From an uncultured Neisseriaceae bacterium (GTDB lineage: Bacteria; Pseudomonadota; Gammaproteobacteria; Burkholderiales; UBA11063): DNA of 58,990 nucleotides. Shown here one piece after another: positions 13,210 through 55,162 of the stretch (positions are counted from its first letter, which is position 1; every line of letters begins with the position of its first letter). The notes beneath the pieces were generated by a model. That model was not told the DNA's origin. It was given only the letters and a program-made list of their open reading frames with translations, and ran no database searches. Both the position numbers and the translations under genes were made by a program. Where the stretch lies: NCBI GenBank assembly GCA_937872505.1, contig CALMTA010000148.1:1-58990 (forward strand), read 5' to 3'.

Positions 13210-14004
13210 ATGGATATTTTAAGAAAAATGAAGCAGGGACATTTGTTCTTTAAAGAAGAGGGTCATAAATACACCTACAAAGGAAAGCTTGTTCCTATAA
13301 GTACTACTGGGTTTATCTCAAAGTTTAAGGAACCTTTTGATAGAGAGTTTTGGCTTATAAAAACATCAGTAAAAGAGAATATACCTGTTGAAATATTAGA
13401 CAAGAATTGGGATTATATTGCTAAGTATGGCACTTTAAGAGGAAGTCTAACACATTTATCCATAGAGCACTATATAGAAAACAATATATTTAAGTACGAA
13501 GTTCCAAAAGAGATACATAAAAAAGATGTTCAAAAGTTTAAAGCCTCAGTTGATACTTGTATTAGTCATGGTAAAAAGTTTGTAGAAGACTATTACTTTA
13601 ATGGGGAATACACTTTATTGGCTAAAGAATATACTGTAGGTTTAATAGAAAATGATGAGTGTCTTTTAGCTGGAAAAATAGATAATATATCTCAAGATAA
13701 AGAAGGAAAAATATTTCTTTTTGATTATAAAACAGATAAAAAATTTGAAAAAAGCTCAAAATACAATAAAAAGTTTTTAGCTCCTTTTGAGTACCTTGAT
13801 GACTGTGAGTTGTCAAAACATTCTTTACAGCTGGCTATTTACAAATTATTGTTTGAGCAACAAACAGGTTTAACAGTAGAAGGTTGTAAAATAGTTTGGC
13901 TTAATGATGCAAACCCTTCTTACCAAGTTGTACCTGTACAAACAATACCACTAACTTATGACTTACTCCGAAATTGTATCAAGAGTACAGATAGCTTTAG
14001 GTAA
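13210..14004 (+). CDS. PD-(D/E)XK family nuclease (Cas4/RecB-like phage exonuclease)
   Basis: A 264-residue protein with the complete motif set of the fold. An N-terminal beta-hairpin (HLFFKEEGHKYTYKG) precedes a helix with G78-S-L-T-H82; Asp158 lies in AGKIDN, Asp172-Tyr-Lys174 in FLFDYKTDK, and Gln207 in the KHSLQLAIYKLLF helix. Asp158, Asp172 and Lys174 are the expected metal-binding and catalytic residues. Similar single-domain nucleases are common in crAss-like phages, where they may act in recombination or genome processing. It is the first gene after the promoter, and its 3' end overlaps the start of the next gene by 47 bp. The precise substrate cannot be inferred. Confidence 0.85.
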   Translation: MDILRKMKQGHLFFKEEGHKYTYKGKLVPISTTGFISKFKEPFDREFWLIKTSVKENIPVEILDKNWDYIAKYGTLRGSLTHLSIEHYIENNIFKYEVPKEIHKKDVQKFKASVDTCISHGKKFVEDYYFNGEYTLLAKEYTVGLIENDECLLAGKIDNISQDKEGKIFLFDYKTDKKFEKSSKYNKKFLAPFEYLDDCELSKHSLQLAIYKLLFEQQTGLTVEGCKIVWLNDANPSYQVVPVQTIPLTYDLLRNCIKSTDSFR

Positions 14005-14641
14005 AGGTGTTCCTTCAGCATCTAATAGATTGTCTGATAGACATATAATATCTCTTGTAAAAGCTAAAAAACCATTGGCAAAAAGACAACTTAGGTTGGA
14101 AATTGCTGAATTAAATACTCTTTTAGCTTTGAACTGTTTTCCACTTGTTAAAGCAAGTGAGGTTGACTGTCAATGTTTAAACTTAGTGACATGTGATACT
14201 GTTATGAAATCTGTATATAAGCTGCCAAGTTATATTGGAGCAATACAGGTAATGACTATAGACGGGGGAAAAAACATTTCCTTAGTCGAAAGAAGTACAA
14301 AAGAATACTCTTTAAATCACTCAAGATTTGGACAGACCTCTCCAAAAGCCTATGTTTTAAATGACTATCTTTATCTTATAAACGCAGAATATAAAGCGGT
14401 AACAGTAATAGCTGATTTTGAAGATGAGGAGGAAGTAGAAAAACTAAATATGAAATGTATCACCTCTGTTAATGAGAGGTGTCTTTCAGCTATGGAGCTA
14501 AATATGACTGGAGAAACTATTGTTATTGATAGAGCAATAACTTTAGCTGTTACTGAACTTATAAAAGCATGGCAATCAGGCTCAGAGGATAATACAAATA
14601 ATGCGAAATCTAATGACGCAAGCAGAGAACAAGAAAACTAA
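13958..14641 (+). CDS. crAss-like ring/tail structural protein
   Basis: This 227-residue protein starts within the end of the nuclease gene (47-bp overlap). The N-terminus MTYSEIVSRVQIALGKGVPS followed by NRLSDRHIISLVKAKKPL, and the later ASEVDCQCLNLVTCDTVM then YKLPSYIG, match a conserved crAss-like virion protein in which a short Cys-x-Cys motif precedes a KLP segment. In crAss-like virions this type of protein belongs to the ring/adaptor assembly between portal and tail. The C-terminal 25 residues are Asn/Ser/Asp-rich and probably disordered. Family assignment rests on remembered sequence features, so the exact ring position is not assigned. Confidence 0.65.
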   Translation: MTYSEIVSRVQIALGKGVPSASNRLSDRHIISLVKAKKPLAKRQLRLEIAELNTLLALNCFPLVKASEVDCQCLNLVTCDTVMKSVYKLPSYIGAIQVMTIDGGKNISLVERSTKEYSLNHSRFGQTSPKAYVLNDYLYLINAEYKAVTVIADFEDEEEVEKLNMKCITSVNERCLSAMELNMTGETIVIDRAITLAVTELIKAWQSGSEDNTNNAKSNDASREQEN

Positions 14642-14653
14642 AATTTTTTAAAT

Positions 14654-15514
14654 ATGGTAGCGAATATTGATGTTTTGACGTTTCACAATGTGATAGTTTC
14701 TTTGATTGACTTTTCTATGAAAAGTGGGTGTTTATTTACTTATCCTACACCTGGGGACATTTTAGATGCGTGTGAAAATCCACCAAGTATTGCAAGTATG
14801 GTTATTGGAGGAAAGAAAAGACCTGCACCACAAACAGGTCAAATGGGACTTGAGTATAAATTGTTTGAAACTGTAAGTAAAGGGATTGATTTTAGTGGAT
14901 TATTTTGTCTTACTCAATCTTATAGAGACGAAAAGGAGATTATAGAAGGGAGACATAACATCATTTTTCCAATGTTTGAAGTTGAATTACTTGGTGATGT
15001 AGAAGTAATGTTTTCTTTTATCAAGAATTTACTTTCAGCCTTTGGGTTTCCCCCTCCTGTTGAACTTGATTACGAGTATTCATGTGAGCAATTAAACGTT
15101 GATATTATAGGAGCAGAGGAAGAACAAAAGCTATATGAGATTTATGGTCCAGTAATTGCGCTTAGAAATTTTCCTGAAAGGTCTAATCCTTTTTGGAATA
15201 TGAAAAGACATGATGGAAAAGCTAAGAAAATTGACATTCTACTTTATGGTGTAGAAGTTATAGGTGCAGCAGAAAGAGAAACAGACCCTAATACTATGTT
15301 TAAAAAATTCTTTTCCATAGAAAATGGAGAATATTCAAAAACACTAATTGACTTATTTGGTGGTGTTGAAACAACAACAAGTCTAAATAAGTACCTTAGT
15401 AACAGTGGAGTATCAATAGTAAGGTCAGGATTTGGTATAGGTATTACCAGATTTATAAAAGCTCTACATAAACGCTATGACGAAAAAACTAAACAGCCAG
15501 AAAACTCTCTATAA
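14654..15514 (+). CDS. AsnRS/AspRS-like class II aminoacyl-tRNA synthetase catalytic core in the tail block
   Basis: A 286-residue protein showing all three class II signatures. A degenerate motif 1 runs through residues 16-40 (SLIDFSMKSGCLFTYPTPGD). Motif 2 is LTQSYRDEKEII with Arg91 and Glu93, followed by RHNIIFPMFEVEL, equivalent to the FRxE...RHxxEFxMxE of AsnRS. Motif 3 is GFGIGITRFIKAL with Arg266. Between them, NPFWNMKRHDG and GVEVIGAAERE match the FYM...DG and EIIGGSQRE region of asparaginyl-tRNA synthetase. No N-terminal OB-fold anticodon-binding domain is present, so it resembles AsnA or other free-standing cores. Whether it charges tRNA, makes an amino acid or aminoacylates another target is unknown. 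Its position between two tail genes is unexpected. Confidence 0.8.
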   Translation: MVANIDVLTFHNVIVSLIDFSMKSGCLFTYPTPGDILDACENPPSIASMVIGGKKRPAPQTGQMGLEYKLFETVSKGIDFSGLFCLTQSYRDEKEIIEGRHNIIFPMFEVELLGDVEVMFSFIKNLLSAFGFPPPVELDYEYSCEQLNVDIIGAEEEQKLYEIYGPVIALRNFPERSNPFWNMKRHDGKAKKIDILLYGVEVIGAAERETDPNTMFKKFFSIENGEYSKTLIDLFGGVETTTSLNKYLSNSGVSIVRSGFGIGITRFIKALHKRYDEKTKQPENSL

Positions 15515-15517
15515 TAT

Positions 15518-15952
15518 ATGCCAAAAAGAAGAAAGAGTTGGACAATAGGTCAATTTGCAGACCTTTATGAAAAGGAAAATAAGGTTGACAGAGCAACAAG
15601 AAACCTTTATGTAAAGGTCTGCAAACTCTTTCTTAAAAAAGTGTGTAGAGATTTATTGAATGGAAGGCTTTTAAAAATTCCTTTTATGATAGGAATGTTA
15701 GGTATTGTTAAGAGAAAACCTTCAAAGAATAAACCTGTTGATTGGTATAATACTAATAAACTAAAAAGAATAGCAAGACATTTTAACCTTCACACAGATG
15801 GATTTTGCTATAGATTAGTGTGGTACAAAACAAAAGGCTACGGTAATTTGAATAATTCGGAGTTCTATTCTTTCACTCCTACTGCTACATTAAAAGAAAG
15901 GATAGCTAAAAAACTTAGAGATAACCCTAATTCTTTTTTCAATGAACGTTAG
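15518..15952 (+). CDS. IHF-like DNA-binding virion protein of crAss-like phages
   Basis: This 144-residue, very basic protein carries a helical N-terminus (SWTIGQFADLYEKENKVDR) and a central LLNGRLLKIPFMIGMLGIVKRK, the IHF/HU-like body pattern of a helix followed by the beta-arm region. The next part, VDWYNTNKLKRIARHFNLHT followed by DGFCYRLVWYK, matches the DW...K...HxxGYRYxWxW block I know from the paired IHF-like genes of crAss-like phages. Those genes sit beside tail genes exactly as here. It overlaps the following gene by 11 bp and ends in TAG, showing TAG is a stop in this genome. Only one copy is present here, whereas p-crAssphage has two. Confidence 0.65.
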   Translation: MPKRRKSWTIGQFADLYEKENKVDRATRNLYVKVCKLFLKKVCRDLLNGRLLKIPFMIGMLGIVKRKPSKNKPVDWYNTNKLKRIARHFNLHTDGFCYRLVWYKTKGYGNLNNSEFYSFTPTATLKERIAKKLRDNPNSFFNER

Positions 15953-16826
15953 TTATATTAGTACTAAAGCAATAATTTATCAATGGCTTTCTGAGACAGG
16001 GAGGTCTTCTGATTTTAATGAGGAAGTTCTTGCAACTCAAATTCTTGATGCCCTGAATATCATGGAATATAAAGCCGCTTTAGTACATGCTGTTGCTCTT
16101 ATTGAAGTAAAAAACCACAGGGCAAAATTACCAAAAGGCTTAAAGACAATAGATATTACAATGTATAATGCAGGACAGCAAAAAGTTAATTCTGCATTTA
16201 TACAAGAAGCAATAATACCAACATTTGATGGTGAGTGTGAGTATAAAATTACAAGAGATTGTGCTGATGATTGTGGTGTAATAATTTCACACAAGCCCCT
16301 TATAGAAAGTCTTATGTACCCATTTAGTCAAAAGTTCAGAGCTTGGAATGGTGTGTATAAAGATGTCTTTAAGCCTATGCACTACTCAAGAAATTCTTTA
16401 GGAATGAAGAATTACCATCTTAAAGAGTGTGATACTGATGTAGATACTAAAGCGTTTTATGAAGTATCTAAAGGATATATAACCACTAATTTCCCTGAAG
16501 GTCAGATACTAATAGCTTATTTTTCTTTGAATTTGGATGACGATGGATTTATCTTTGTACCTGATGACTCAAGAGTAATAACTGCTCTTATTGCATATCT
16601 TGAAGAAAGACAAGCATATAAAGAATATTCGAGAACAAAAAGCAGAGATGCAAGAATGTTTTATACAGATGCCAAAACTATATGGCAATCAAAACTTGGT
16701 TCAGCAAGAAGTGCACTTTTATTAAACCAAATAGATATACACGAACTCACTAAAATTCTTGTAAATCTATATAAATTTGAACACCCAGAACATTTCTGGA
16801 AAGATTATACTCAAAACTATGTCTAA
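15942..16826 (+). CDS. crAss-like tail tubular/ring protein
   Basis: A 294-residue protein with a helical N-terminus (STKAIIYQWLSETGRSSDFN followed by AALVHAVALIEVKNHRAKLPKG), a beta-rich middle, and the segment GQILIAYFSLNLDDDGFIFVPDDSRVIT-like (split here as FPEGQILIAYF and DDDGFIFVPDD), which corresponds to the conserved 'yxxxPxDexGxPlIPDnxxY' region of crAss-like tail tubular proteins. The C-terminal helix bears many aromatic residues. It starts inside the IHF-like gene, and its end overlaps the tail stabilisation gene by 8 bp (ATGTCTAA). The position directly before the stabilisation protein is the canonical crAss order. Confidence 0.65.
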   Translation: MNVSYISTKAIIYQWLSETGRSSDFNEEVLATQILDALNIMEYKAALVHAVALIEVKNHRAKLPKGLKTIDITMYNAGQQKVNSAFIQEAIIPTFDGECEYKITRDCADDCGVIISHKPLIESLMYPFSQKFRAWNGVYKDVFKPMHYSRNSLGMKNYHLKECDTDVDTKAFYEVSKGYITTNFPEGQILIAYFSLNLDDDGFIFVPDDSRVITALIAYLEERQAYKEYSRTKSRDARMFYTDAKTIWQSKLGSARSALLLNQIDIHELTKILVNLYKFEHPEHFWKDYTQNYV

Positions 16827-19800
16827 TCAAGTAGATGTTATAGGTATGCTTAAAGGGCTTAACTTAGATGTTACGCCTGAACAACTTGGTGAAGGTGAGT
16901 ACACCTTTGCTTCAAATGCAGTTATTGCCCCTGGGGATTTGTTATCTATATCAACAGAAGGAGGTACTAAAACTTGTATAAATAATTTAGGCTACATACT
17001 TGGCTATGAGTTTATAGCCAATAAAAATCTTGTTGTTGCTTTTGTTGTTGATGAAAACAGTACAAACTCAAGAATTGTAAAGATAGATTTACAAACCTGT
17101 ACATCAGAAATTTTATTTCAAGACCCGTGTTTAAACTTCAGTATTCATAATCAAATAAGAACTACGTATAAACAGCTTGATAGTTGTGGTGAGATAGTTA
17201 TTGTTTTTGTACAAAGAGGTAACCCTATACGATATTATAATATAGATAAACCTGTTACAACATGTGAAGACCTTGCATTGTTTACTTGCTCTGATGATAT
17301 TGGGTTAAAAGTGAAATCAGTTTTAGATAGTGGAGGAAGTATTTTATCAGGAAAGTATTGGTTCCTCGCAGGCTACTCTGATGAATTTGGAAATGTAGAA
17401 GCAGTTACAGCACTTTCTCAAGAAGTAAGTATAATAGATGACATCTCAACGATTTCTTGGAAGTACATAGATGGGTGCCCAGCTAACACTCCTACTACAA
17501 AATCTGTAGAACTTGAGTTCACTAATCTTCTTAGTACTAAACAGTTCTTAACTTTATTTATAGTTTCATCAATTGATTTTCAATACCTTATCTATAAAGT
17601 TGTACTTAGGTATAATGGTACAGGAACTTTTAATTTTACCTACTCAGGTGGGGGAACACCTACAAGTATAGAAGAAATAACAATTCCTACAAGTAAATAT
17701 ATATCAGCAGAGCTTGTAACTCAACATGAAGACAGGCTAATACTTGGAAGATTAAAAAATGCTGCAGCTCTTGATTACCAAAAACAAGCCAACGAAATTC
17801 AAGTTAAATGGTTCACTTCAAAAATATCTGCTACAGCTGGAAAGAAATGTGCCCCAAAATTAACAAATGGTATTCTTTACCCCTCTGCTCCTGGGTTCAC
17901 AATTAGAAGACTACTTACGGGGTTTGAAGTTTCATACTTGAATGATGTTGTAACAGCTGGTAACATATACAATATGATAAACTTTGCTATTTCTCAGCAA
18001 ATTTTAGGTATGCGTTTTCTTGATGTTACAGGGTTTGAATATTTTTCAATAGATAGAGTTTCAAATGTTACAATTACATCTACGCCTGGTGGTCTTGGTG
18101 GTAATGATATGGTTAGGTTTGATTATGATTTTGCTACTCCTCCTGACGAATATCCAGACTGTGCTCAACCTTGGGTAACAAACACTTCCTTTCCTCCTTT
18201 TACAACAAGAAGTTTAATGACAGGAGGAAGTACTCCTCTATTTTATCTTATAGAAGAAGAGTTGACAGAAGCTAAAGGTTTTAGTCCTTATAAAGACCCG
18301 TTAACTTCTCTTTATAAAACATTCATGGGCAATGAAAATTATGCTTTGAGTGTGTGGTGGGAATTTTGTGACGGTTCTTTTTCTCCTGCATATCATATTC
18401 CTGGGACTACATTAGAACAAGTTAATTCTTGTTTTCAAGGAGTTAAGTCCTATCTTGTAGTCGGAGAAGACTTAGAAGAAATTTTTTATCCTCATGCAGA
18501 CAGTATAGTTGAAGCTAATGATATAAACAATCCTTTTAAGTGTGAAAAGTTTGTTTGGGAAATCTTTGATACTTCTTGTATTGAAGAAGAGCCATTTGAA
18601 TTATCAGAGGTGGAAGTAGATGATTGCGGTAATTTATTAGGTAACAAAATAGGAGTATGGCAAAGGGGCTCTTTAGGTTATTATGAGGAGACTTGTTTAC
18701 AGTATCCAACAGCAACTGATTGTGAAAATGACTTCATTTATCCACACACTATTGATGAAGATGAGGTTACTATGGATAATGTAAGGCATCATAAAATACC
18801 TTCAAGAAGAACTACTACACATTTTAAAAGTAACAATGAACTATCTGTAGAAAACGGAGGTAATATTGCAGATAAATATCCTTATGAAGAGATAGAAATA
18901 TACCCTATAGGGCTTGAGTTCTTTAATATTACTCCGCCTATAAATCCTCCTCAACCTGTTGTTGGTTATCATATAGGCTTTGTAAAAAGAACATCTTCTA
19001 ACAGTTCAGTTATTGGAAAGGGTATAGTTATAAGCAGTCTTTATTATAGTGATGAAGACACAGGTAACGGCTATTTTTTCAGAGAGTCTGTAAATAGTGA
19101 CATTGATAATGCAGCAATAAAGATTGGAGAATATGGTGCATCTGTTCAAGGAAGTACAAATTACCCAAACAACTATGTTCCTTATAAATTCTTTTCTCCT
19201 GACACACACTTTGATAAGCCGCAGTTAAACTCTTCTTACATTCAAGTTGAGCAAGAATGGTTTGGTAAAGGATTGAAGTATGCCCCAGGAGATGTAAACA
19301 CACTTGTTAGTAGAGGTCTCAACATTAATTTAGAAGGTCAAACAGTTCTTCCTAAACTTAGTGATACAGCGTCAACTTCAGTAAATAGAAGTGTTGTATC
19401 TCAAACATACATAGGAGCCAATGAAAATATTTCAGGGTTGTCTGGTCTTTCAGGTGTTGTTATTAATTTCTTTGGAGTTAGTGGAGTAGTTGTAAACATA
19501 GACACAAAAACACAAGACCCCGAAGAGGGTTTATTAAAGTACAACAATTTATGCACCTCTGATATTGCAGATGGCAGCTCCCCAATATCGTTTTCTGAGT
19601 TTCAAGAAGATATTGATTGTGCCAAAGCGCATTATGTTTCTCTTAAAAGAAACTACTGTAATCAATATGGAGACATTTATAATCTTGTATATATTCCAAC
19701 AGGCTATTCTTCTTCGGACATTCAACAGTCATCTATAAAAGTCTTTGGTGATAGCTTTATAAATTACTATTCTTTCTTTAGAACTTTTATACATTCACTT

Positions 19801-21561
19801 TCAATTGCCCCAGCTTTAACTTTATTCATGCCTTCAACAACTTTAATTCATGGAGTTTATGAAAGCAATATAAATGTAGATTTAAGGCATGAAGGTGCCA
19901 CAGAGTTAGGAGAGGTTTATTACCCTAAACTTAGCAATGATTTTTGGGGTCTGCACTCTTCTATAAGTACAAACCCTCCTGAAAGGTGTTTACTTGAACA
20001 GTTCAGACTGAACACTGAAAATTCTGAAAATGATTTAGATGCTTATGGAATTGACAATGTAGCAAATTATAATAAGGACTATTCAAGACAACCTGACTTT
20101 TTACCCCAGTTTGCTCCAAGTAGCACATTCAAACCTTGTGATTGTGATAGTACACTTATAAATGATATTGCTGTTTCTCTTGTACATAATGAAGTATCTG
20201 ATGGTTGGAGAATATTTAGACCTGCAAACATATTCACTATTCCCCGTAATACGGGAGAGATAATGAATTTATTCTCCTACAAGAATACAATGTTTGCTCA
20301 CACTACAGACAATCTTTGGAGAATATTTACTACTCAAGATAGACTGTTAACAGATACAAGTACTGTATTTATTGGCTCTGGTAGTATATTTACACAAACA
20401 CCACAATACCTGTACTCAACTCGTGAAGGTTATGCAGGAATTCAGCAGATGAATGGTTGGTACCTAAATAGCAACGGTTATTTCTGGATTGACTTAAAAT
20501 CTAAAAAAGTTTTTGTATTATCAGAAGGACTTGAAGAGTTAAGCCTTAAAAAGATGTTCAAGTGGTTTAGGAAAAATTTAAAGCTTCACATGGACTTCCC
20601 AGGATTTCTTGGGAAAGACAATTACGCTAACCCTTTTTCAGGTACAGGTTGGCATATTGCTTTTGACTATTCATTGAATAGACTTCTTGTTACAAATAGA
20701 GATTTTGCCTTTAAGGAACCAAGTAGATTTGGTGGCATTTATTCTGAAGTAGATTGTGAGCAGGACAAGATATATTACGAACAAGTTACTAAAAAATTTG
20801 TTCTTGTAGTAGATGCTTCTGACTGTGCTTATACAATTATAGACTTTACTGATGAAGAGTACTTCTGTAATAAGTCATGGACACTAAGTCTTAGTTTTCT
20901 AACTGGTTATTGGGTTTCATGGCATAGTTATGTTCCAACTGCTTATTTAACAACATTAGAGGAATTGTACTCTTTGTCAGATAAACAGTTTGTTACACAC
21001 AATGCCGATGATTTGTTTACAACATACTATGGAAACTACTACCCATATATAATTGAGATGGTTACTAAAAAACAGATAACCGCTTCAAGTATCTGGGAAA
21101 GTTTGTCCTACTTAACAGAGTCTAAGAAGTTGGTTAATGGAAGGTATAAAGACACAGGAGATACATACACGCATATTATAGCCTGGCATGAAAACGATAT
21201 TCAGCAAAATACAGGTAAGTTGGAGATAATGCCCAGAATAGATGATGCTCAAAACTTTATGGTTGATAGCATTACAGATTTTACTGGTATAGTAAAAGCT
21301 CATAAAAGACATGGGAATTGGTTTATCAATGGACTGTACAATTATATAGATGACCAAGAACTCTCTGTGTGGTCTGAAGAGTGTGTTCCATTAGGTTTAG
21401 ATAAAGAAATAATTCAGGGAAATATTAATTTTCTAAAAGACTATCAATATTTAGATAGATTACGGAATAATTTCTTAACTTTACGTTTTATTTTCGACAA
21501 TCCATCTAAATCTGACATTAAACTTCTGACGAAATTTTTAATTTCAATTACAGCATCGTGA
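16819..21561 (+). CDS. crAss-like tail stabilisation (hub/muzzle-type) protein
   Basis: I chose ATG 16819 (MSNQVDVIGMLKG) rather than the in-frame ATG at 16777, because it gives an ATGTCTAA overlap and avoids 50 bp of overlap with the upstream gene; the product is 1580 residues. Diagnostic features are an N-terminal 'ALN'-like entry (TPEQLGEGEYTFASNAV), a beta-propeller-like middle, and a late conserved block: GYAGIQQMNGWYLNSNGYFW near residue 1205, then KSKKVFVLSEGLEELSLKKM, then SWTLSLSFLTGYWVSWHSYV near 1353-1372. These match the tail stabilisation family of Bacteroidota podoviruses, distantly related to P22 gp10. A Gly/Val-rich segment (GLSGLSGVVINFFGVSGVVV) lies near residue 870. It ends at TGA, overlapping the next GTG start. 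Confidence 0.75.
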   Translation: MSNQVDVIGMLKGLNLDVTPEQLGEGEYTFASNAVIAPGDLLSISTEGGTKTCINNLGYILGYEFIANKNLVVAFVVDENSTNSRIVKIDLQTCTSEILFQDPCLNFSIHNQIRTTYKQLDSCGEIVIVFVQRGNPIRYYNIDKPVTTCEDLALFTCSDDIGLKVKSVLDSGGSILSGKYWFLAGYSDEFGNVEAVTALSQEVSIIDDISTISWKYIDGCPANTPTTKSVELEFTNLLSTKQFLTLFIVSSIDFQYLIYKVVLRYNGTGTFNFTYSGGGTPTSIEEITIPTSKYISAELVTQHEDRLILGRLKNAAALDYQKQANEIQVKWFTSKISATAGKKCAPKLTNGILYPSAPGFTIRRLLTGFEVSYLNDVVTAGNIYNMINFAISQQILGMRFLDVTGFEYFSIDRVSNVTITSTPGGLGGNDMVRFDYDFATPPDEYPDCAQPWVTNTSFPPFTTRSLMTGGSTPLFYLIEEELTEAKGFSPYKDPLTSLYKTFMGNENYALSVWWEFCDGSFSPAYHIPGTTLEQVNSCFQGVKSYLVVGEDLEEIFYPHADSIVEANDINNPFKCEKFVWEIFDTSCIEEEPFELSEVEVDDCGNLLGNKIGVWQRGSLGYYEETCLQYPTATDCENDFIYPHTIDEDEVTMDNVRHHKIPSRRTTTHFKSNNELSVENGGNIADKYPYEEIEIYPIGLEFFNITPPINPPQPVVGYHIGFVKRTSSNSSVIGKGIVISSLYYSDEDTGNGYFFRESVNSDIDNAAIKIGEYGASVQGSTNYPNNYVPYKFFSPDTHFDKPQLNSSYIQVEQEWFGKGLKYAPGDVNTLVSRGLNINLEGQTVLPKLSDTASTSVNRSVVSQTYIGANENISGLSGLSGVVINFFGVSGVVVNIDTKTQDPEEGLLKYNNLCTSDIADGSSPISFSEFQEDIDCAKAHYVSLKRNYCNQYGDIYNLVYIPTGYSSSDIQQSSIKVFGDSFINYYSFFRTFIHSLSIAPALTLFMPSTTLIHGVYESNINVDLRHEGATELGEVYYPKLSNDFWGLHSSISTNPPERCLLEQFRLNTENSENDLDAYGIDNVANYNKDYSRQPDFLPQFAPSSTFKPCDCDSTLINDIAVSLVHNEVSDGWRIFRPANIFTIPRNTGEIMNLFSYKNTMFAHTTDNLWRIFTTQDRLLTDTSTVFIGSGSIFTQTPQYLYSTREGYAGIQQMNGWYLNSNGYFWIDLKSKKVFVLSEGLEELSLKKMFKWFRKNLKLHMDFPGFLGKDNYANPFSGTGWHIAFDYSLNRLLVTNRDFAFKEPSRFGGIYSEVDCEQDKIYYEQVTKKFVLVVDASDCAYTIIDFTDEEYFCNKSWTLSLSFLTGYWVSWHSYVPTAYLTTLEELYSLSDKQFVTHNADDLFTTYYGNYYPYIIEMVTKKQITASSIWESLSYLTESKKLVNGRYKDTGDTYTHIIAWHENDIQQNTGKLEIMPRIDDAQNFMVDSITDFTGIVKAHKRHGNWFINGLYNYIDDQELSVWSEECVPLGLDKEIIQGNINFLKDYQYLDRLRNNFLTLRFIFDNPSKSDIKLLTKFLISITAS

Positions 21562-27360: not shown

Positions 27361-30300
27361 ATGGACGAAGATTTTTTGTTAAGCATATCTGGTGATACTA
27401 TTCCTGATTATCCAGCAGCAGGACCCATGCAAATTAATTCTGTGCCTATAGTTGAACCTACTACAGATAGTGCCCCTGTTACTTCTAAATCAGGAAATCA
27501 AGAAGGACTTGTTGGAGAAAGTAAACCATTTACTTTTTCAGATAGAATGTCTGAAATAGGTTCAAATATTTTCCCCGCTTTAGGGAGAGAGTTAATAGGA
27601 GGAATTGTAGATTTTGGTGGGGCTTTAAATCCAGGGGCTCAAATAGAGAGCTACATGAAAACAGGAGAATTTATTCCTGCTGTTACTCAATCAGGTAAAG
27701 CACAAATGAATGTTGTTGGGGCTTTTGGTGAAGGTGTAGTTACTACTATTGGTAATATTATGGGTATTACTCAAGATGGTCTTGAATACCTAAATGTTAT
27801 TGATGGAACAGAAGAAGAAAAAAATAATTTGGATAAGGTTTTTTCAAACTTTATTATAAACGAGGGTCAAGATTTTAGGGAAAATATGTCTGAAAGTGCA
27901 AGTGCACTTGTTGGAGGAACTACTCCTGAACTTCAAGAAGAAAGAAAAAATGAAAGTGTAGCTGTTATGCTTACACGACCTGAATTTTGGACAGAACAAG
28001 GAGCCCAAGGTGCAGGTTCTATGGCTTCTTTCTTTGCCCCAAGTATGTTTTTAGGTAAGGCAGTTAGTGCTCTTGCCAGAGTTTCTATGGGATTGTCAAA
28101 ATTTGGTAGAGTTGCATCTTATGCTGGAGGAGCGATAACATCAGCAACAGCAATGTCTACTATTGAAGCTGGTATGGAAAGCTCTGGAATGTATAAAAAG
28201 CAGTATGAAGATGTTTTTGTTAAAGAGTTTGATAAAATTACAAAAGCTTCCCCTGGGATAGACCCCGCTGAAGCTGAAAAACAAGCTCATGCTAAAGCTT
28301 TAGTAAGTGCTTCTAATGCTGCTTCTTATGTAGCCAGTGCAAATGTAGCTTTACTTGTACCTACAAATCTTTTAGAAACTTTACTTTTGTTTTCTCCTTT
28401 TAAAGGAACAACTAAAGCTGTAGGTACAGTTTTATGGAACACTGCTTCTGAAAGTTTTCAGGAAGGTATGCAAGGGGGTATAGAAAAAAATGCTGAAGAT
28501 AAATTTGAATACGGTAATGAAAAAGAATTAGGAGGAGCATGGAATAGAAATATTTCAGAGCCTTTCTTTACAATGACAGACGCATTAAAAGAAGGAGATA
28601 AAGACGCATGGTCTTCAGTGATTATTGGAGGAGTGATGGGAGGAGGTTCAAGTTCAATTTCTGAATTTCAAGAACATTCTAAATATAGAGCTTTAAAAGA
28701 AAGATTAGGAAATGCTTTATCCTCTGAATTGGATTATAAAGGTTTAATAAGAACTTTTGAAGACTTGTTTGAATATGAAACTACAACTGAAAATGGTGTT
28801 GAAAGTAGAAAGATAAAGGTTGATGGAAAAGGAGAGCCTATGCTAAATGTAGCAAAGGTAAAAGAGCATTTTCAAACTTTAGATGAGTTATCTAAACTTA
28901 TAAGTGAAGCAGATGTAACTGAAGACAGTGTATTGAAGTCCTTACTTCAACAAGAAATATTGTCTAAAGCTTTGTTTGCAGAATTACAATCAGGAACAGA
29001 CCCCTCTTCTATATTAGAATTGTTTGATGAAACAGCTTCTAAAGTAGGAAACAAGGGTAATGTAGAATATGGAGGGGAAATTATTTCCAAAAAAGATTTC
29101 AATGAAAAAAGAAGGCAGCAGTTAGAAGATTCAATGGAAGATTGGAGAAAGGCTAAATTTACTGGAAAGACATATAACATGACAGGAAGAGAAGTCTTTT
29201 CTTTGTTTGATAACATGGCTAAAACTACTGTGTTAAATAGGGAATTAGAAAGATTAGAGAAACTGAAAAAGGACATTAATCCAGGTGATGATAATTTGTA
29301 TACAAGAGCATTAAACGATAACATAGCAAAAGTAAACGTTGCCTTAGAAAAACTTAAACAATCACATGTTAAAATAACTTCTCCTGAAGGTATTGCTTTC
29401 AGAAAAACAGAAACAGAGATTGCTAAAGACTTTAACATAGTTTTAGATATAATAGACCGTCTTTACAAAAAAGGTAATGTAACAACAAACGACACAAAAA
29501 ATTTATCAAAACTTATAGAAGACCTAAATACTAAGGTAAGTGACCTTATTTCTAAAGAAGAAAATGAAGAAAGAAAAGTTATCCTTCAAGATTTAAAAAA
29601 TACTATTGAAAAATCTTTAAATGATACAGCTCAAGAGTTAAAAGAAAATACTTTTGCGTCTAAAATAAAAGAAGATACTGATACAAGAAAGGAAATATTA
29701 GACACTGCTAACAGTTTGTTAGGTCAAGACCTTACTTATGAGGAAGTAGAAACACAGTTTAAAGAGAAGTACAAAGATAAACCAGAATATTCTCCTCTTG
29801 TAGATGAGTATTTAAAACAGCTAAAAGAAAAGAAAGAAGCTCAAAGACTTAGAAAAGAAGCTGATGAAGCTGAAGAAATAGCTAACCCAGGGAAAAAAGC
29901 TAAAGAGGAAGCAAGGCGTTCTGTAGGACAAGTTATATCAGAAACAGCTACAAGTATTAGAAGAACACATATTGGAAACAATGCTATAGAAAAAGCCGCT
30001 TTAAAAGTTTTAAAAGACTGGGGGTATGATGAAAAGTTTGTAGCCGCTAATGATTTCATAGAATTTGAAGAGGTGTTTACTGCTCCTAACGGCACTGAAA
30101 AAACTTCTCCTGCCAGACTTCAGATACACAATGAAAATGCTTTTTCTATAACCACTTCTCAAGGAGTATTTTTCTATAATGGGAATGGTAAGTTAGAAGC
30201 TGTTTCTACTAATTCAAATGTAGCAGAACTTAAAGCTGAATTTGGAGATGACATATTGAATAAGATTAGTGAGTTATCAGGTATTACTTTAGAGAACTTA

Positions 30301-33300
30301 GAAAATCCTAAAATACTAAAAAAATCTGTAGTTGAAAATCAATCTATATTTTATCTTGTAACAGACAACAAACATTTAAGTATATACAAAACAGGATTTC
30401 GTTTACATGATTATGCAGATAATTCTGTAAAGGTAATTGACTTTGAAACTAAAGAAGTTTCTACATCAACAGAGGAAGAAAAAGGAAATGAAGAAAGTAA
30501 TGTAGGGGAAGATATAGAAAAATTTGCTAACAGGATTAAGAACGGTGAAACAATGACTTCACCAGAAGACTTACAGTTTTATGCGAATAATACAACTGAA
30601 ATTGAAGCTTTACTAAAAAAACAATCTACAGAAAATAAAGTAGAAAGTACAAAAGAAGATATAGAAAAAAGAAGACAAGAGGAGTTAAACAATAGAAGTA
30701 TAACTGAAAGGAATACTGATGGTAAGTGGGATGTTGCTGCTGAATACTTATTAAATAGTGGAACTAATTCCGTATTAAGTACTGATTATTATTTATTGGG
30801 AGTAGCTGGGGCATTTAGCAAATTAACAGGTATTATAGACGATATAAGAAATAAATACGCAAGAGAATTAGCGGATAATAATCTTGTGGACTTATCTAAC
30901 GCTATAAATTCTAACTTATTTAATACTATAAATAGCGAAATAAGAAATGAGATAGAAAAAATATATGGGAAAGAGGGGGCTTTATTATTTGACATCATAT
31001 CTAAATCGCCTAAAGGATTAACAGGCAGGGTAGGGAATGAAGTATCTTCTAAAATAGATAATTTAGAAGATAAAATTAATAGAGAAATCAATGCTAAATA
31101 TGATGCAGAACTAAAAGAAGCAGAAGCTTTATTAAAGGAACAATCTACAGAAAACAAATCTGAACAAACAGCTATTGAAAAAGAAGAGAAATCTACAGAG
31201 ATAAATGATTTAAGTATAGAAGTCACCTCTGAAAAATACAGTTCTAAACTGCTCAAAGATAACCCAGATAAACTATTTGTTTTTGGTGATAATGTTAAAA
31301 GAACAGGTAAAGGTGGACAAGCTGTAATTAGAGATGAACCTAATAGCATAGGAATAGCTACAAAATTGGAACCTAATAACGGCAAAAATGCTTTTATGTC
31401 TGATGATAATTTAGAGCAGAATAAAGCTGTTATAGATGAAGATATAAAAAAAATTAAAGAGAAGGCATCATTAGAAGGAAAAACAATTGTATTTCCTAAA
31501 GGAGGTCTTGGTACTGGGCTTGCCTCTCTTAAATGGAAGGCTCCTCAAACTTTTGAGTACTTAAATCAAAGGTTAAAAGAGGAGTTTAGATTTAACAACA
31601 CCTCTGGAGGAATAATAACAGTTGCAAGAGAGGCTAAGGAAGGCCTTAAAAAAGCAGACGAGGTACAACAAATTGTAGCAGAGATGGCTGAAGAGAAAGC
31701 TACAGAAAAAGAAGAAGCTGTTTCTAATAGTGAAATAACTGTGAAAGAAGATACAGATATTACACTAACCTCTGCTGCTGAGAATTTATATATGGATGAT
31801 AAGAGCTTCTGGTCTGAGTTTCAAGCATTTTTACCTGAAGAAAATATAGCCTATCTATCTGTAGAAGGTGACCGTACTTCTACAGGATTTGCAGAAGTAG
31901 TAACAGAAGTACCAAAATATCCTTTAAATATACAGCCTGATAAGTTACTCCCAGGAACAGTTATAACACTTAAAATTCCTGATAACTATAATGATGTACC
32001 TGTAAAAGAAGGTGCTGAAACATCTACTTTTGGAGACTTGTCAAAACGTAGAGGTCCTGAATGGACAAAAGAGAACATGCCTATAGGCATTTATTATGGA
32101 GATACTTTAATAGGCTATTTACATGTTCCTACATGGGTCTCTGATAGAGCAAGTGAAGATAATCGAGTTGAGGCTTTAAAGAAATTAAATAGTCTAAGAG
32201 GAAAATTTCTTGCTAAAGGCGGTGTTCCAATACCAGGAATGAAATTAGCTACAACTATTACTAAGAAAAATGATGGTATTGCTAATACGTTAGGTAAAAG
32301 TCAAGAGCTACTTACTGTCCATGAAGCTATGCACAAGACAAGTAAAGTTACTGCTTTTATGGTAGCCCCAAACAGAGATGGTTTTAGATTTTATGGTAAA
32401 AATCAAGAGGAGGTTTTAGGAAAAAATGCTTCTATTTTAATCCCTTACAGCTTACAAACACAGGATAAGAACAAGAATATGCCTGTTGTTTTAATACGTA
32501 TTACTGATGGAGTTGTTGATGGAGTGACTTTTCCAAGGTGGCGTGTACTTCCTATAACTAAATTAAAACAGGGACCACTTGTAAATTCTCCTTTGCATAC
32601 TTTAATGATTGAAACTTTAAAAAGGTTTTTCAGAAACTATATTGAAAGTTCTGAATTGTCTGAAATAAAAAATGTTGAAGATTTTGGAGAGTTTTTAAAA
32701 TTCTTTTTACCTGAGCATTCTATTGCTGGGGATAGGTCATTACGTGAGGAAATAAAAAGAATAGAAAATGAAGAGGGCTTATCAGCAGCAGATAGATTAG
32801 AAATGATAAGGCAAGTATTAGCACCATACTCACATCCTAATAACTTAACGTTTTCTATAGTAAATAACGATATATATTTCACTAAAGGAAATAATAGTAA
32901 ATTAGGAAGCAGTGACTCTACTATCATTAAGATAAGCCCTTCTTTCTTTGAAAACATGGGTAATAGTGCTGAGTTGAATTCAATGTACACCAAGTTAATG
33001 GGTATATTAGAAGAAGAGTTCAATTCTATACAGGAATTTAATGTAAATAAATCTGCTTTTGAGAAAGGTAAAAAAATGCCTTTATTAGAAAGTATAGATG
33101 CTGAAAAAAGTACACAAAGGGATTATTCAGAGATAGTTGACCAACTACACCAAACAATCTTCAAATCAACAGCTTTTGTTAATGAAGAAAATGAAACTAT
33201 ACACTCTGTAATAATTCAGCCTATTATACAGTTTGACATGAATGCTGTATTAACACCCTCTGTTGAAGTAACTGTTACTGAAGATAATACTACTTTAAGC

Positions 33301-36300
33301 TTTGAACAACTAAAAGAAAAGTATATAGAGGGGTTACTACCAAAAGTAGTAGAACTTTCTGAGGATGAAAAGACTTATGTAGAGGCTAATCCTAAAGAAG
33401 GTCAAATACCTGAAGTATTTATGAGAGTAAGTACTTTTAAATCTAAAAGAGATGCTTTTAATTTAGAAGCTCTTCCTGATAGAGGCTTAACAAGGCAACA
33501 AGCGAGAGGTACTGCTATAGACACTTTATTTAGAGATTTATTTGAGGGTAAAGTTGATGTAGATAATAGAACCGAGGTAGAAACAGCTTTTCACTCCTAT
33601 ATAGCATTAGAGTTTCGGGGTCTTTCGATTCCTACAATTAAAGATAGCTTAATAGATGACCTAATAGGTATTTTTAAAAGTATAAAAAAATCATTAGACG
33701 AAAAAGGGTTAGTGTATTCAGCAAATACTAATTCATTATACGGAAGAATAGATGGTGAGTTAATTGCAGGTACAGCAGACATAATAGCCTATGACCCAAA
33801 GACTGGAACTTATTACATCTTAGACTTTAAAACTTCAAGTAGAAGTAGACCCAAAGACTACACTAATACAAGAGGTATTTATAAACAATCAGACCTTATA
33901 CAATTAAATATATACAGGTCATTACTTGCTGAAATTCTTAACATACCCCAAGAGAAGATATTATTGGGTGTATTTCCTGTTTATATAGGTGAAGATGAGA
34001 GGTATATAAATAGTGCAACTCTTGTTGAGACAACCAATGATTTAATGCCTGGGGTTTTAACTGTTTCTACAGAAAATACAATAGAACAAATTTTAGGCTT
34101 AGACACAACTGTTGAAGATACGCCTGAAATAGACACTGCTACTTTAATGGAAGATGTTGTTCCATCTGATGTAAATATAGACCCACAAGATACTGCTGAA
34201 AATGTTGAAGTTCCTACTGAAAGTGAGACTTTAGAAACTATTCCATCTCTGGAACCAGAGGTTTCTGATATTGAGTGGAATGAGTTAAATACGGATATAT
34301 ACAATATTTTCCAAGGGTTAGATGTATCAGGTATAGTAGAGAATATTGCTGAACTTACTTATGAGCAGTTAGCCAGTATTCCAGGAGAATTTTCTGAGAA
34401 GGTTGATTATATATACAAGATAGCCTCTTCAGAAGGACCTCCAACACAAGATATTTCATTACCTTCATTACAACATTTGAGTACTCCAAAAACAGATGCT
34501 TTAAGAAAGAAATTTGAAAAGGATAATAACTATATTTCAGACCTTGACGTAAATGATTTCCAAGAAGTAATTTATGACGTACATCATTTTGTTTTAAGTA
34601 AAATGCTTGTTGAAGGGGAAGAAAAAATGGAGTTTCTGCCTGCTTTTAAATTGTATATGAAACAATTAAAAGCAGGTGCAGAGATAACAGATAAAGAAAA
34701 GAAGGAGAAGATAAAAAAAATACTAAAAAGTATACAAGAAACAGGAACTCGTATTTACAGTGCTAAAGGGGTTTATAAAAGTAAAGTTCAAAGGCTATCC
34801 AATCTAACAAGGTCTTTGATGACTTTGTTAGGTGTAAATGAACAGAAGTTAGCAGAGGTATTAAAAAGTTCCGATTTTAGTAGTTATAATGTAGTACAAA
34901 GAAATCAGTTAGAACACTATAAAGTTCTTCAATCAGAAATAGCTTTGGTAAAAACTGATATAGAAACCCATGAAAAAACAATAGCCACATATATAGAAAG
35001 GCTAAAAGATTTAGGATATGAATATAGTTTAAGAGTTACTCACGTTTTGAAAAACCTTAACACTATACAGTTTATTGTAAAAAGAATGATTTCTGATGTA
35101 GATAAGCAATTAAAAGCAGAAGAGGAAGAAAATGATGTTTATGATGTAGAAGGTGAACAAATTGATGGTATAGATGAAAACAGTGCTGCAACTGAAGGTG
35201 GAATGGATGAAACAGATGATTCAGGACATACTTGGGACCAAGGAGTTGGGGAAAAGAGTTTAAGAATTTCTATGCCAAAATATTTGAGAATGAATTTGTC
35301 TGGCATTAAAAGAATGGAAGAAAAAGAAACTGAAGATGGTACTACTATTGTTAACGCTAAAAACTTTTTGAATAAGGACTCTATAGTGAGTCCTGAAGAA
35401 GTTTACTATACTTTAAAAACTCTTTTATCAGGTACTTCAAACTCTTTAGAGGAAATTTTAAGTATTTTAGGGAAATACTCCACAACTTATTTGTGGTTGC
35501 CACAAGTAATCACTATGTTAGAAACTAACAAAAAGTTTGCTACTCAATTTGCAAGCTCAATGCCTTCTCATGCCCTAAATATGACTGGCGTTAGTGTACA
35601 AAAGAATAAAACAAAGAGTGGAACAACTTACTCAATAAAAGTATACAACTCAAACTCTAATGACGCAGTAAAATCCACAAAAGAAAAATGGATGTATGAA
35701 GCTGCAAGGTCTAAAGTTTTTTATGTTAAAGATGGGCAACTTGTTGTTGATAAAAATAGACTTTTTGAAACCATTCAAGGGTTAAAGAATATTGCTAATA
35801 CTATTCAAGGTGGTGGTGTATCTTCTTCTATTCCAAGTTTAAGTGCTTCTGGAACTGATTTTACTAAGATAATAAAAAAGACATCTGTTGGAACTAAGAG
35901 TATAAAATCTTTAACCACTGATGGTATTAACAATAATATTGAAGTTACTGTAAATGATTTAGAAACTTATTTTGGGCTTACTAAAAATTCTTCTCTTAGG
36001 TTAGCTACAAAAGATACCATACCATTTGAGAGTATTACAGAACAAGGTGTACAGTTTTCTATTAGTTATAATGTACTTGTTAATAATACTAACGTAGAAA
36101 AGAAACAAGTAATAACTCTGAAAAAATCTGGAGATAAGTTCTTATTTAGTTCTAAACCTGTTAGTGAAAAAACCTCTGTACAAATATCTGAATTATCAGA
36201 GCTACTAAGTAATGTAGGAATATCAATGAGTTATAGGGCACTTGAAAAAATAGTGAACAAAGGCATCTCATCAGGAAGGTATACTAATAATATATTAAAA

Positions 36301-39300
36301 CTGTTTACTGACAACAACGGTGTATTTAATATTCTAATACAAGAGCTTGACAAAATATACAAAGGCTTACCTTCAAATACTTCTTCTACAACTGCTCCAA
36401 TAGAATTAAGTGTTGTAGACAGCTTTATAGAACAGACTTTTGCAACAACTTTAGCCAAAGAACATATAGAACATAGCCCTTCCTTAGAAGTTATTACAAG
36501 TAATTTCCGTGAGAGCAGAAAAGCAATACATACTCACGTTCTACGTAAAATGATTACTGATAGGATAATGTATTTAAAAGAAGAATTGGAAAAAGATGTA
36601 GATAAAAGGCAATTGATAAATCAGATTAAGCACTCTATTTTTAGCTCTGATAGTTTATACATGGATTTGCTTTTAGAGGAAACTGAGGAAACTGTACTTT
36701 TAGATTTTAAAGATAAGTTTGGTATAGACCACTTATCCTTAAATGTTTTGAAGCAGACTTTAAAGGATTACTACAACACTAAAAAACTTAAAGATTTAAC
36801 ACCTATTGAACAAGAGATTGTAGAGTTGGCTTATTATACAAGTAATAATGTGGATTCTAAAAAAATCTCTTCAGGCTCTTTGAAAGGTAAAACAGTAAGA
36901 ATAGCTTCCTATTTAGTTCCTAAAATGAGTGATAAGGATACTGAGCTTGCTACTCAAGGTATAGCTTATGTTTTTAAATCTGGTAATAGTGATTTTTCTA
37001 CGAAAGAAGAAGATGTAAATCAGGCTTATACTCTGTATGTAGAAAGGGTTATTGTACCTGAAATAAAAAGGATACTACATACTAACAGGTCAAAACTTAA
37101 TTTTAACTCTAAGTATCTTTTGGGTGGAAAAGTATTTAACAATACACCTATACTGAACGCTTTAAGCATTAAAGGAATTTCTTTTTTAAATATACTAAAA
37201 AGAGCCTCTGAAGATAGAACAAAAACAATTGATGAGCTTACAAAAGAGATTGTGGAACTTTATTCTTCAGAGTTAAGAGCAGCCGCTAAAAAAATTATAA
37301 CTACTGAAACAGTTAGAAGGCTTCAACTATGGGAAAAAGGTAAACTTTTAGATATAGACGAAAGTGGTAAAATAACAGGTATTAGGTTTTTAGATGAGTC
37401 ATATCTTTATCGTGTAAAAGACCAAAGAGGTCATAGAGAAACAGCAGAAAGAATAGCTTTTGAATATACTGTTAATTCTCTTATAAATAGTTCTGAACAA
37501 CAGATGCTTTTTATAGGCGACTTAGCAGACAAATTTGATTTGAAAAATTCTGGTCTGAAAGCTAAACTTGTGTCTGCAATAAATGGGGAAAGCATTTTAA
37601 CTGATGCTGAAGCCTCATTAATCTCTAAATCTATATACAGTGTTTCAGCGGGTAAAAGGTTAGCAGACCTAATTGCTCCTGGGACTAAAGCTGCTGAAAG
37701 TGAGAAGAACTATTTTTATTACATGCCTATCAAAGATATTATAGGTATGTCCTCTTCAATAGAAGTGATAACTCAGTACTTAGATGGTAAAAAATATAAT
37801 GAAGAAGAACATAAACAACAAGGTTCAGACTACTTGAAAAACTTCCCAAATTCTGCTGCCTTCTTTAATATGGAAACCACTGATGGTTTTGAGTTTGGTA
37901 CTTGGAGAGAGGGTATTTATATACGTATGCAAGAAGGGCTTCTTTCTAATGAAGAGGCAAACGTATTAACAGAGGCTATTGCTAATAAAGTTAGTTGGAA
38001 AGACTTTAATGAAGAAGAGAAAAAACTTGCTGGAATACTCCTTAATAAAGTTCATCAACCTGATAAGCCTGTATACACAGGATTAGTTTATGAAAATGTT
38101 GAAGGAGAAGACTATGGAGTATTTAGAGAGGTCTATGTAAAAAGTTCTATAGCTTATCTTATTCCTCAACTTACTTCAGGAATGACTCTTGACCCTTTAA
38201 GAATTTTCATGGAAAAACTTGAAGATAACCTATTAGATAAAACTACTACTTCAGAGTTTTTTGGCTCTGGGGGTGTGAGGGTTCCTTTTAGTTCTGCTGT
38301 GAAATTAGGGCAAAAAAATGAAACATTAGAGGTGTTTGATGAAAATGCTAATGTTAGACAAGACCTTTTAAGTCTTATAGATAGCCCAGAAAAGTTAGAG
38401 GCGTTTAAAGAAAAATATCTTATACAAGTTCCAAGAACTCACCTAAGAAGGCAGCAAGAAGTTCCTTATAAATCTAAAAAGAAAGACTCAAGTAAAAATT
38501 TAAGGGGTTCACAAGAAGCTAAATTTATTTTTGCTGACTTGCTTTCTATTAACAGGATTACAAATAAATATGATGTAGAGATACCCTTTGAATTTAGAGG
38601 TGCACAGTATAACCCAAAGCAACTGTATGATATTTATTTAGATACCTATAAGAAAATTTACGAAGAACAGTTTCAAGCATTATTGAATGAGGAGTTAAAA
38701 ATAGACACATATCCTACTTTAGAAGAAGCGTTAAGTCTTCTTGATGAAGCTAAGATAGATACTAAAGATATTGTTACACTGTATGATGCTGTAAAAGCAT
38801 TAAAATCTAACAACATTTCTTTCTATAAGCATGTTGATTTAGCTGATTCTGTAAGTAAAGATATTAGTCCTTTAATGAACTTGTTGAGGGCTGAAGCAGA
38901 GTCAAGACAAGGGTATAGTTTAACTGCAAGGAACATACTTAAATTTAATGGAAAATCTATAATGGACTTAAATTACCCTCTGTGGGCAAGTTCACACTCT
39001 GATAAATTTGAGGCTCTTTTGAATGCAGTAGTAAGTAATAGGGTGTATAAAATAATTTTCCCAGGATATTCTTATGTTTTAACTCCAGATATTTTAGGAA
39101 AAAAACTTACTAATGTAGAAGCTACAAAAGAAGTACTTGACAAATATGCTGATAAAATTATTTGGACAAAACCTGAATATGCTAAACAGCAAAATATTAA
39201 AGGGCACGATATTGTAAATGGAAAAGTACAACTTGACCAAGTAATTGTACCATCTAAATTTGTAGGAAATGATGGTATGATTATTGATTTGTTTGAAGGT

Positions 39301-54346: not shown

Positions 54347-55162
54347 TTAAATTATTTTTTCTTGTTTTAAAATCTGTTTTACTTTTTCAATTAGTTCAGG
54401 TATTCCTGCATTGTTTTCTATTGTGTAATCAAATGTAGCATCATCTAAAACTGTTTCTGAAACATGCTGTTTAAAAGCCTCTTTACATCTTGGACAAGTT
54501 AGAATTTTATCAGAAACTTCTATCAAATCTATTTTACATTCTTTACACTGTTGTGGTCTATTTATTCTGATAGTAATACCTCCCCTGTCTTTAACAGCTT
54601 CTAATTCATTTGAAAATCTCATGTCACTAATAATCCAGTTAGGATATTTCCAAGAACCTTTAATTTCTTTATTTTCACAACCTTCATAATCAAATCCTGT
54701 AGTATTATAATCAGCAAACAAAGCATTTACCCAAATATTTGGATGAAGTACATTACGCATAGCTTCTGTTCCGACTTCTTGAAGAAGTTGTCTTACAGTA
54801 AATTTTTTTAAAAAAGTAGTGTATTCTGGTTTATCTTTATATTCAAGATAAGGATACATTTTTTTACCTCCTACTTCAGTATAAAAATACCACCATTCTT
54901 CACCTAATACTCTATCTTTAACTTCTTGTTTTTCTAAATCTTCAACAGATATTCCTGTAAGTATAGATACTATCTCTTTAAGCTTTTTTTCAAACTTTTT
55001 TATTTCCCAGTTAGCATTTAAATAATTTATTAACCAATGATTTCCTTCAATAAACTCTTCAATTGAAATTTTATAAGGTTGTTTACCTGTTAAATACTGT
55101 ATTATTTTACCGACAGTATCTCTTTCAGAACTAATTTTTCCTGATATTGCAATTATTGCCAT
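54347..55162 (-). CDS. Deoxynucleoside monophosphate kinase-like protein with degenerate P-loop and zinc-ribbon insert
   Basis: A 271-residue protein. The N-terminus AIIAISGKISSERDTVGKII aligns with the SGKIGSGKDTVG P-loop of phage dNMP kinases, but the second and third glycines are Ser12 and Glu13 and the Walker A lysine is Arg14. Other family signatures are intact: RQLLQEVGTEAMRNVLHPNI, then WIISDMRFSNELEAVKDRGG, ITIRINRP, and the C-terminal SETVLDDATFDYTIENN. A zinc-ribbon-like insert has Cys206-x2-Cys209 and Cys223-x2-Cys226. The enzyme would phosphorylate dNMPs for phage DNA synthesis; the altered P-loop puts its activity in doubt. It overlaps the upstream gene by 10 bp. Confidence 0.75.
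   Translation of the reverse strand: MAIIAISGKISSERDTVGKIIQYLTGKQPYKISIEEFIEGNHWLINYLNANWEIKKFEKKLKEIVSILTGISVEDLEKQEVKDRVLGEEWWYFYTEVGGKKMYPYLEYKDKPEYTTFLKKFTVRQLLQEVGTEAMRNVLHPNIWVNALFADYNTTGFDYEGCENKEIKGSWKYPNWIISDMRFSNELEAVKDRGGITIRINRPQQCKECKIDLIEVSDKILTCPRCKEAFKQHVSETVLDDATFDYTIENNAGIPELIEKVKQILKQEKII

Follow-up and report, generated by a model that had tools for sequence, protein, structure and literature searches.

The window analysed here, a stretch of 58,990 nucleotides, carries a gene for an AsnRS-like catalytic core amid the tail genes of a crAss-like phage, and this raises the question of what a synthetase-like enzyme does at such a site and in the viruses and cells that carry its relatives. 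The product of the gene scored 34.4 bits against the Pfam model PF00152 (tRNA-synt_2, class II D, K and N; cut-off 25), was matched by phrog_29758 over the whole core (6.8e-49) and by the family alignment with 339 bits and, judged by these matches, is a divergent member of the large phrog_29758 family. An AlphaFold2 model of the protein (input alignment of 29 sequences; mean pLDDT 90.3, pTM 0.89) had as its top matches among solved structures the catalytic domains of AsnRS (2xti, 8h53, and 1x54; Z 26.2–26.3), with ~249 residues aligned at 2.1–2.5 Å, followed by AspRS, EpmA, and archaeal AsnA (3reu, Z about 23.6). Structural modeling thus supports the class II fold proposed in a first-pass annotation of this DNA. 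Because the structural alignment fills residues 3–276, the protein of 286 residues leaves no room for an anticodon-binding domain, and the N-terminal OB-fold domain that serves this purpose in AsnRS is absent, as the same annotation had claimed.

Table 1 Features of the window and type II tRNA-Asn(GUU) genes of other loci (window positions unless a locus is named)
Feature	Position	Strand	Evidence or remark
crAss-like tail Ring protein 2 (CrAss_Ring_2), upstream neighbour	13958..14641	+	PF25702 1.2e-13
AsnRS-like class II catalytic core, 286 aa, phrog_29758 family (AsnRSL)	14654..15514	+	ATG start
ILDACENP (residues 36-43), family signature segment with invariant Cys40	14759..14782	+	alignments
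QTGQMGLE (residues 60-67), aligned to QSSQLYLE of AsnRS	14831..14854	+	profile alignment
Motif 2 core R91-D-E93	14924..14932	+	R91 and E93 invariant in 104 relatives
EVIGAAERET (residues 201-210)	15254..15283	+	Arg208 aligns with Arg of AsnRS GGSxR segment
Motif 3 Arg266	15449..15451	+	conservation alignment
144-aa protein	15518..15952	+	phrog_12177 (1.4e-10)
crAss-like tail Ring protein 1 (CrAss_Ring_1), downstream	15942..16826	+	PF24228 3.7e-23
Muzzle, downstream	16777-21561		2e-30
Deoxynucleoside monophosphate kinase	54347..55162	-	PF21448 1e-9; phrog_139 4.9e-36
Type II tRNA-Asn(GUU), 3' of family gene	L005:12697-12783		
Type II tRNA-Asn(GUU), 3' of family gene	L006:12705-12792		
Type II tRNA-Asn(GUU), 3' of family gene	L203:1915-2003		
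Type II tRNA-Asn(GUU), elsewhere in a phage carrying the family gene	L122:2766-2852		

The likeness to AsnRS (class IIb) comprises the core fold (Z 26), the motif 2 and motif 3 arginines, and the Gln-x-x-Gln-x-x-Leu-Glu and GxxxR segments. Arg91 and Glu93 of motif 2, Arg266 of motif 3, and the GVEVIGAAERE segment had been named in the first-pass annotation, alongside a claim of all three class II motifs, and these residues and the segment are present; conservation among 104 relatives reaches at least 95% for R91, E93, R208, and R266. The full-length AsnRS models TIGR00457 and NF003037, in contrast, gave 21.9 and 22.7 bits (cut-offs 342.6 and 414), and in the alignments ILDACENP stands in place of the region that bears the EGG/EGA segment in AsnRS and AspRS. 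On a scale of 81 columns that are at least 95% conserved among 104 typical family members, the window protein retains 62 and departs at 19, most of which are non-polar positions or belong to the N-terminal segment. Family-invariant residues that are kept are C40, Q60, T61, Q63, E67, R91, E93, R100, H101, E109, E111, N182, K192, D194, E201, R208, and R266; Glu28 is the sole family-invariant charged residue lost; the N-terminal segment that holds it has also changed at the invariant Gln32 and at Arg18. Because its branch in the family tree is very long (2.42), the placement of the window protein is unsure. A second member, as divergent as the window protein, is encoded on another contig of the same assembly (G000:C4:21225-21977; L003), where it adjoins dut-like and methyltransferase-like genes.

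The family comprises at least 576 viral contig stretches and 134 in cells, with a typical member length of ~265–300 residues. Among the viral carriers are Prochlorococcus phages as well as phages of 735 kb and 484 kb; the 735-kb genome (L136; LR756501.1:690000-691500) also has two tRNA genes called Pyl, with a CUA anticodon. The PHROG 29758 "tRNA ligase" of Prochlorococcus phages P-SSM2, P-SSM5, and P-SSM7 belongs to the same family (~40% identity over the core), and in the sources searched the family is annotated as tRNA ligase or unknown, with no role in nucleotide synthesis assigned.

In the window, the upstream neighbour is a ring protein, as previously annotated; the IHF-like protein reported on the other side did not hold up, since only phrog_12177 matches that 144-residue product. 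ARAGORN found no tRNA gene in the window, in agreement with the claim that the gene is sited away from tRNA genes. A gene for a PD-(D/E)XK exonuclease (13210-14004) overlaps the 5' end of the Ring 2 gene, positions 27361-46878 form one ORF of 6505 residues that is probably the giant protein characteristic of crAss-like phages, and a search with Ring 1 as query found no close relatives of this phage. The position between the Ring 2 and Ring 1 genes might suggest that the enzyme is delivered with the virion or attaches an amino acid to some non-tRNA target, such as a protein, and the fold match to EpmA (3a5y, Z 23.6) lends itself to the latter idea; EpmA/GenX, the EF-P lysine ligase, likewise has a stand-alone class IIb core and a non-tRNA target. 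However, EpmA/GenX is a LysRS-type enzyme, its models reach 11–24 bits in relatives of the window protein (264–287 needed), and no EpmA model is among the matches of the window protein itself. Virion delivery had only the position of the gene in its favour, and the tail-operon location was seen in this phage only; most relatives lie in other contexts, including pyr operons of cells. We consider both ideas very unlikely.

In contrast to AsnRS, the family is linked to pyr genes in cells and mostly unlinked to tRNA genes. In 30 of 80 cellular loci, pyrD, pyrE, or pyrF lies within 7 kb of the family gene, and in 27 of these 30 within 1.5 kb; the annotation of the pyr neighbours was confirmed by NCBIfam and Pfam in sampled loci, and the count takes into account that the "PyrD" neighbour in four CPR loci (L188, L192, L199, and L207) proved to be Dus. 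The other 50 loci have no pyr neighbour inside 7 kb, and this counts against a role in pyrimidine synthesis. The linkage turns up in many parts of the family tree, where well-supported branches force at least nine changes, and the linked branches belong to Bacteroidota, Gammaproteobacteria, Pasteurella/Midichloriaceae, Chlamydiota, Myxococcota, Parcubacteria, and Dependentiae. Gene orders differ between them: the family gene is followed by pyrE-pyrF-pckA in Gammaproteobacteria and by pyrD-pyrE-pyrF in a chlamydia, it comes last in a parcubacterium after pyrD-pyrE-pyrF and an argH-like gene, and in Aureispira it adjoins pyrD while a fused pyrEF is divergent. Neither chance nor common descent readily accounts for such recurrence on separate branches.

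Other neighbours also recur. An argininosuccinate-lyase-like gene lies immediately 5' of the family gene in four loci on three separate branches (L153, L154, L180, and L192), and an amidohydrolase gene adjoins in L154 and L192 (of the PRK06886 type in L192); the products of these neighbours are possible partners of the enzyme, but the four lyase-like genes are unaccounted for by a role in pyrimidine synthesis and count against it. The gene for PEP carboxykinase, pckA, adjoins the family gene or lies close by in seven loci of Flavobacteriia and Gammaproteobacteria (L150, L159, L163, L164, L165, L166, and L215).

To our knowledge, pyrimidine synthesis is regarded as starting with the same three steps wherever the pathway exists. 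We surveyed the enzymes in 50 carrier genomes and 14 control genomes using model cut-offs, and CarB, PyrB, and PyrC are absent from most carriers. Aspartate carbamoyltransferase (PyrB) was above the cut-off in five of 50 carriers (G049, G070, G074, G079, and G089) and in 14/14 controls; carbamoyl-phosphate synthase (CarB) in three carriers, with a split match slightly below the cut-off in G063, and in 14/14 controls; and dihydroorotase in 5/50 carriers and 11/14 controls for the PyrC_multi model and in no carrier for PyrC_dimer. PyrD, in contrast, was above the cut-off in 34/50 carriers, and 21 of the 28 carriers with a strong PyrD lack CarB, PyrB, and PyrC together. Within the order of Aureispira (249 genomes, eight of them true carriers), PyrB is absent in 8/8 carriers and present in 225/241 others (Fisher p=2e-9), and PyrC is above the cut-off in 0/8 and 197/241, respectively (p=2e-6), although kinship among the genomes violates independence and these p-values therefore overstate the evidence; the occurrence in many phyla carries more weight. 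Typing of six PyrC-like proteins, drawn from five Bacteroidota carriers, gave allantoinase (four proteins, 494–533 bits; cut-off 358) or dihydropyrimidinase (two proteins, 579–609 bits), which rules out a retained PyrC for the proteins typed. The initial idea from the pyr operons, that the enzyme substitutes for PyrC alone, was dropped because PyrB and CarB are missing as well.

Based on the pyr operons and the genomes without the three usual first enzymes, the family probably acts in an unrecognized pyrimidine route. Specifically, we suggest, with a probability of roughly 0.55, that the enzyme functions in pyrimidine nucleotide synthesis, replacing CarAB-PyrB-PyrC, and not in translation; for the divergent copy in the window, this function is extrapolated from the family. 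Three observations temper this reading. No PyrD was seen in some eleven carriers with small genomes (DPANN, some CPR, and Dependentiae), which counts against it. PyrB and the family gene coexist in four genomes on long separate branches (two Coatesbacteria, Kapabacteria, and Ignavibacteria), so some subclades may be paralogs with another role. Many carrier genomes are incomplete MAGs, and absent genes could reflect this or auxotrophy; in relatives of Haemophilus, pyrD/E/F can survive in auxotrophs, and H. influenzae presumably lacks carAB, pyrB, and pyrC yet retains pyrD/E/F.

In phages, the surroundings of the gene fit a role in nucleotide supply. One phage contig (L053) has a tight cluster of purB, the family gene, pyrF, and glnA (pyrF identified by homology, purB and glnA by reading the sequences); by the same kind of reading, a ribonucleotide-reductase-like (nrdJ-like) gene is directly upstream of the family gene in L216, and the dut-like gene adjoins it in L003. 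P-SSM2 also encodes orotate phosphoribosyltransferase (pyrE), and the window has its deoxynucleoside monophosphate kinase. Chaperone neighbours in phages (dnaK and groEL) were taken as genome context and not as a functional clue.

A minimal AsnRS acting on its own tRNA-Asn, in phage translation or in resistance to anticodon nucleases, would suit another set of observations. AsnRS is the nearest match in fold and pocket, and a type II tRNA-Asn(GUU) gene of 87–89 nt with a long variable arm, and in cyanophages with a Leu-like body, lies directly 3' of the family gene in P-SSM7 and P-SSM2 (~20 bp or less downstream) and in L203 (~170 bp); its presence in these three cyanophage-type loci counts against the pyrimidine role. 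On the other hand, ARAGORN found no adjacent tRNA-Asn gene in the remaining loci that it scanned, whether of phages or of cells; the distant tRNA-Asn genes of other carriers are mostly of ordinary type I, and several carriers have none in the regions read. A role in aminoacylating tRNA would also leave the pyr operons unaccounted for, and we regard it as improbable.

The substrate pocket bears on what a pyrimidine enzyme of this fold might use. In the profile alignment, Leu66 of the window protein corresponds to a leucine in AsnRS and to the Asp-binding lysine in AspRS (for the roles of these active-site residues see PMC7387524). Since Leu66 and Arg208 are matched and the glutamate in the RHLAE segment of AsnRS is not preserved, the pocket is AsnRS-like yet not identical to that of AsnRS. 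It does not look suited to aspartate, and with these two residues it would fit the use of asparagine better than an aspartate pocket would. AsnA, by comparison, retains a lysine in the flipping-loop segment of its aspartate-type pocket. These differences weigh on the proposal that the enzyme is an asparagine synthetase of the AsnA type (Asp + NH3 + ATP to Asn), with its pyr linkage reflecting the supply of aspartate and asparagine. The stand-alone class II core of ~290 residues is indeed shared with archaeal asparagine synthetase A (AS-AR; 3reu, 3rex, and 3p8t; Z about 23.5) in length and domain layout, the pckA neighbours would suit such a role, and AS-A is known to be an AspRS paralog that was repurposed (PMC9437257). 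However, leucine stands in place of the lysine that binds the carboxylate of aspartate, the NCBIfam models NF005055 and NF005053 gave 21.1 and 19.2 bits (cut-offs 389 and 322), and such an enzyme would not account for carriers having lost PyrB, PyrC, and CarB. The earlier suggestion of an AsnA-type enzyme or one with a non-tRNA target thus pointed in the right direction, while its strict AsnA form is weakened by Leu66 and by AsnA scores of ~20 bits against the 322–389 needed; we consider that form distinctly unlikely.

How could one enzyme stand in for three? Returning to a role in pyrimidine synthesis, we infer that the product would be dihydroorotate and, with less certainty, that the substrate would be L-asparagine. 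In the tentative scheme that we put forward as a possible one, a single class II synthetase-like enzyme, present in many bacteria and widely carried by phages (crAss-like and Prochlorococcus), would make L-dihydroorotate from L-asparagine, bicarbonate, and ATP. Bicarbonate would carboxylate the alpha-amino group of asparagine, the AMP-forming enzyme with its AsnRS catalytic core would use ATP to adenylate the resulting carbamate, and ring closure through the amide nitrogen of the side chain would then yield L-dihydroorotate together with AMP and PPi, all in one step; under this chemistry the atoms of asparagine and bicarbonate would land in dihydroorotate positions. The synthesis of threonylcarbamoyl-AMP offers a precedent for forming an N-carboxy amino acid that is adenylated. 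In cells, the enzyme would substitute for CarAB, PyrB, and PyrC and feed PyrD, PyrE, and PyrF, sharing the end product with the usual route while being unrelated to its enzymes and bypassing carbamoyl phosphate. A search of open-licence papers yielded no match for an alternative route to dihydroorotate.

Alternatively, the enzyme might replace only part of the early pathway, with other enzymes supplying the remaining steps: either N-carboxy-aspartate would be adenylated and would then react with ammonia to form the amide, N-carbamoyl-aspartate, or N-carbamoyl-aspartate would be activated at its beta-carboxylate for ring closure. The evidence from gene context and missing enzymes is identical for partial and full replacement, the AsnA-like amidation of an adenylate is a precedent in the same fold, and the amidohydrolase and argininosuccinate-lyase-like genes of L154 and L192 could encode the partners. 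Yet PyrC is missing too, with the typed PyrC-like proteins being allantoinase or dihydropyrimidinase, and Leu66 in place of the Asp-binding lysine speaks against an aspartate-type substrate; partial replacement therefore appears rather unlikely.

If the family does replace the first three enzymes, this would account for their apparent lack in Aureispira, several Flavobacteriia, and other bacteria that live freely, and the label of tRNA ligase or unknown that this large family now bears would need correction. Phages would carry the gene as a metabolic gene, a non-orthologous bypass offering them a route around the feedback-controlled first steps and raising pyrimidine supply; in the window, the tail-operon site would be incidental, and the copy has diverged.
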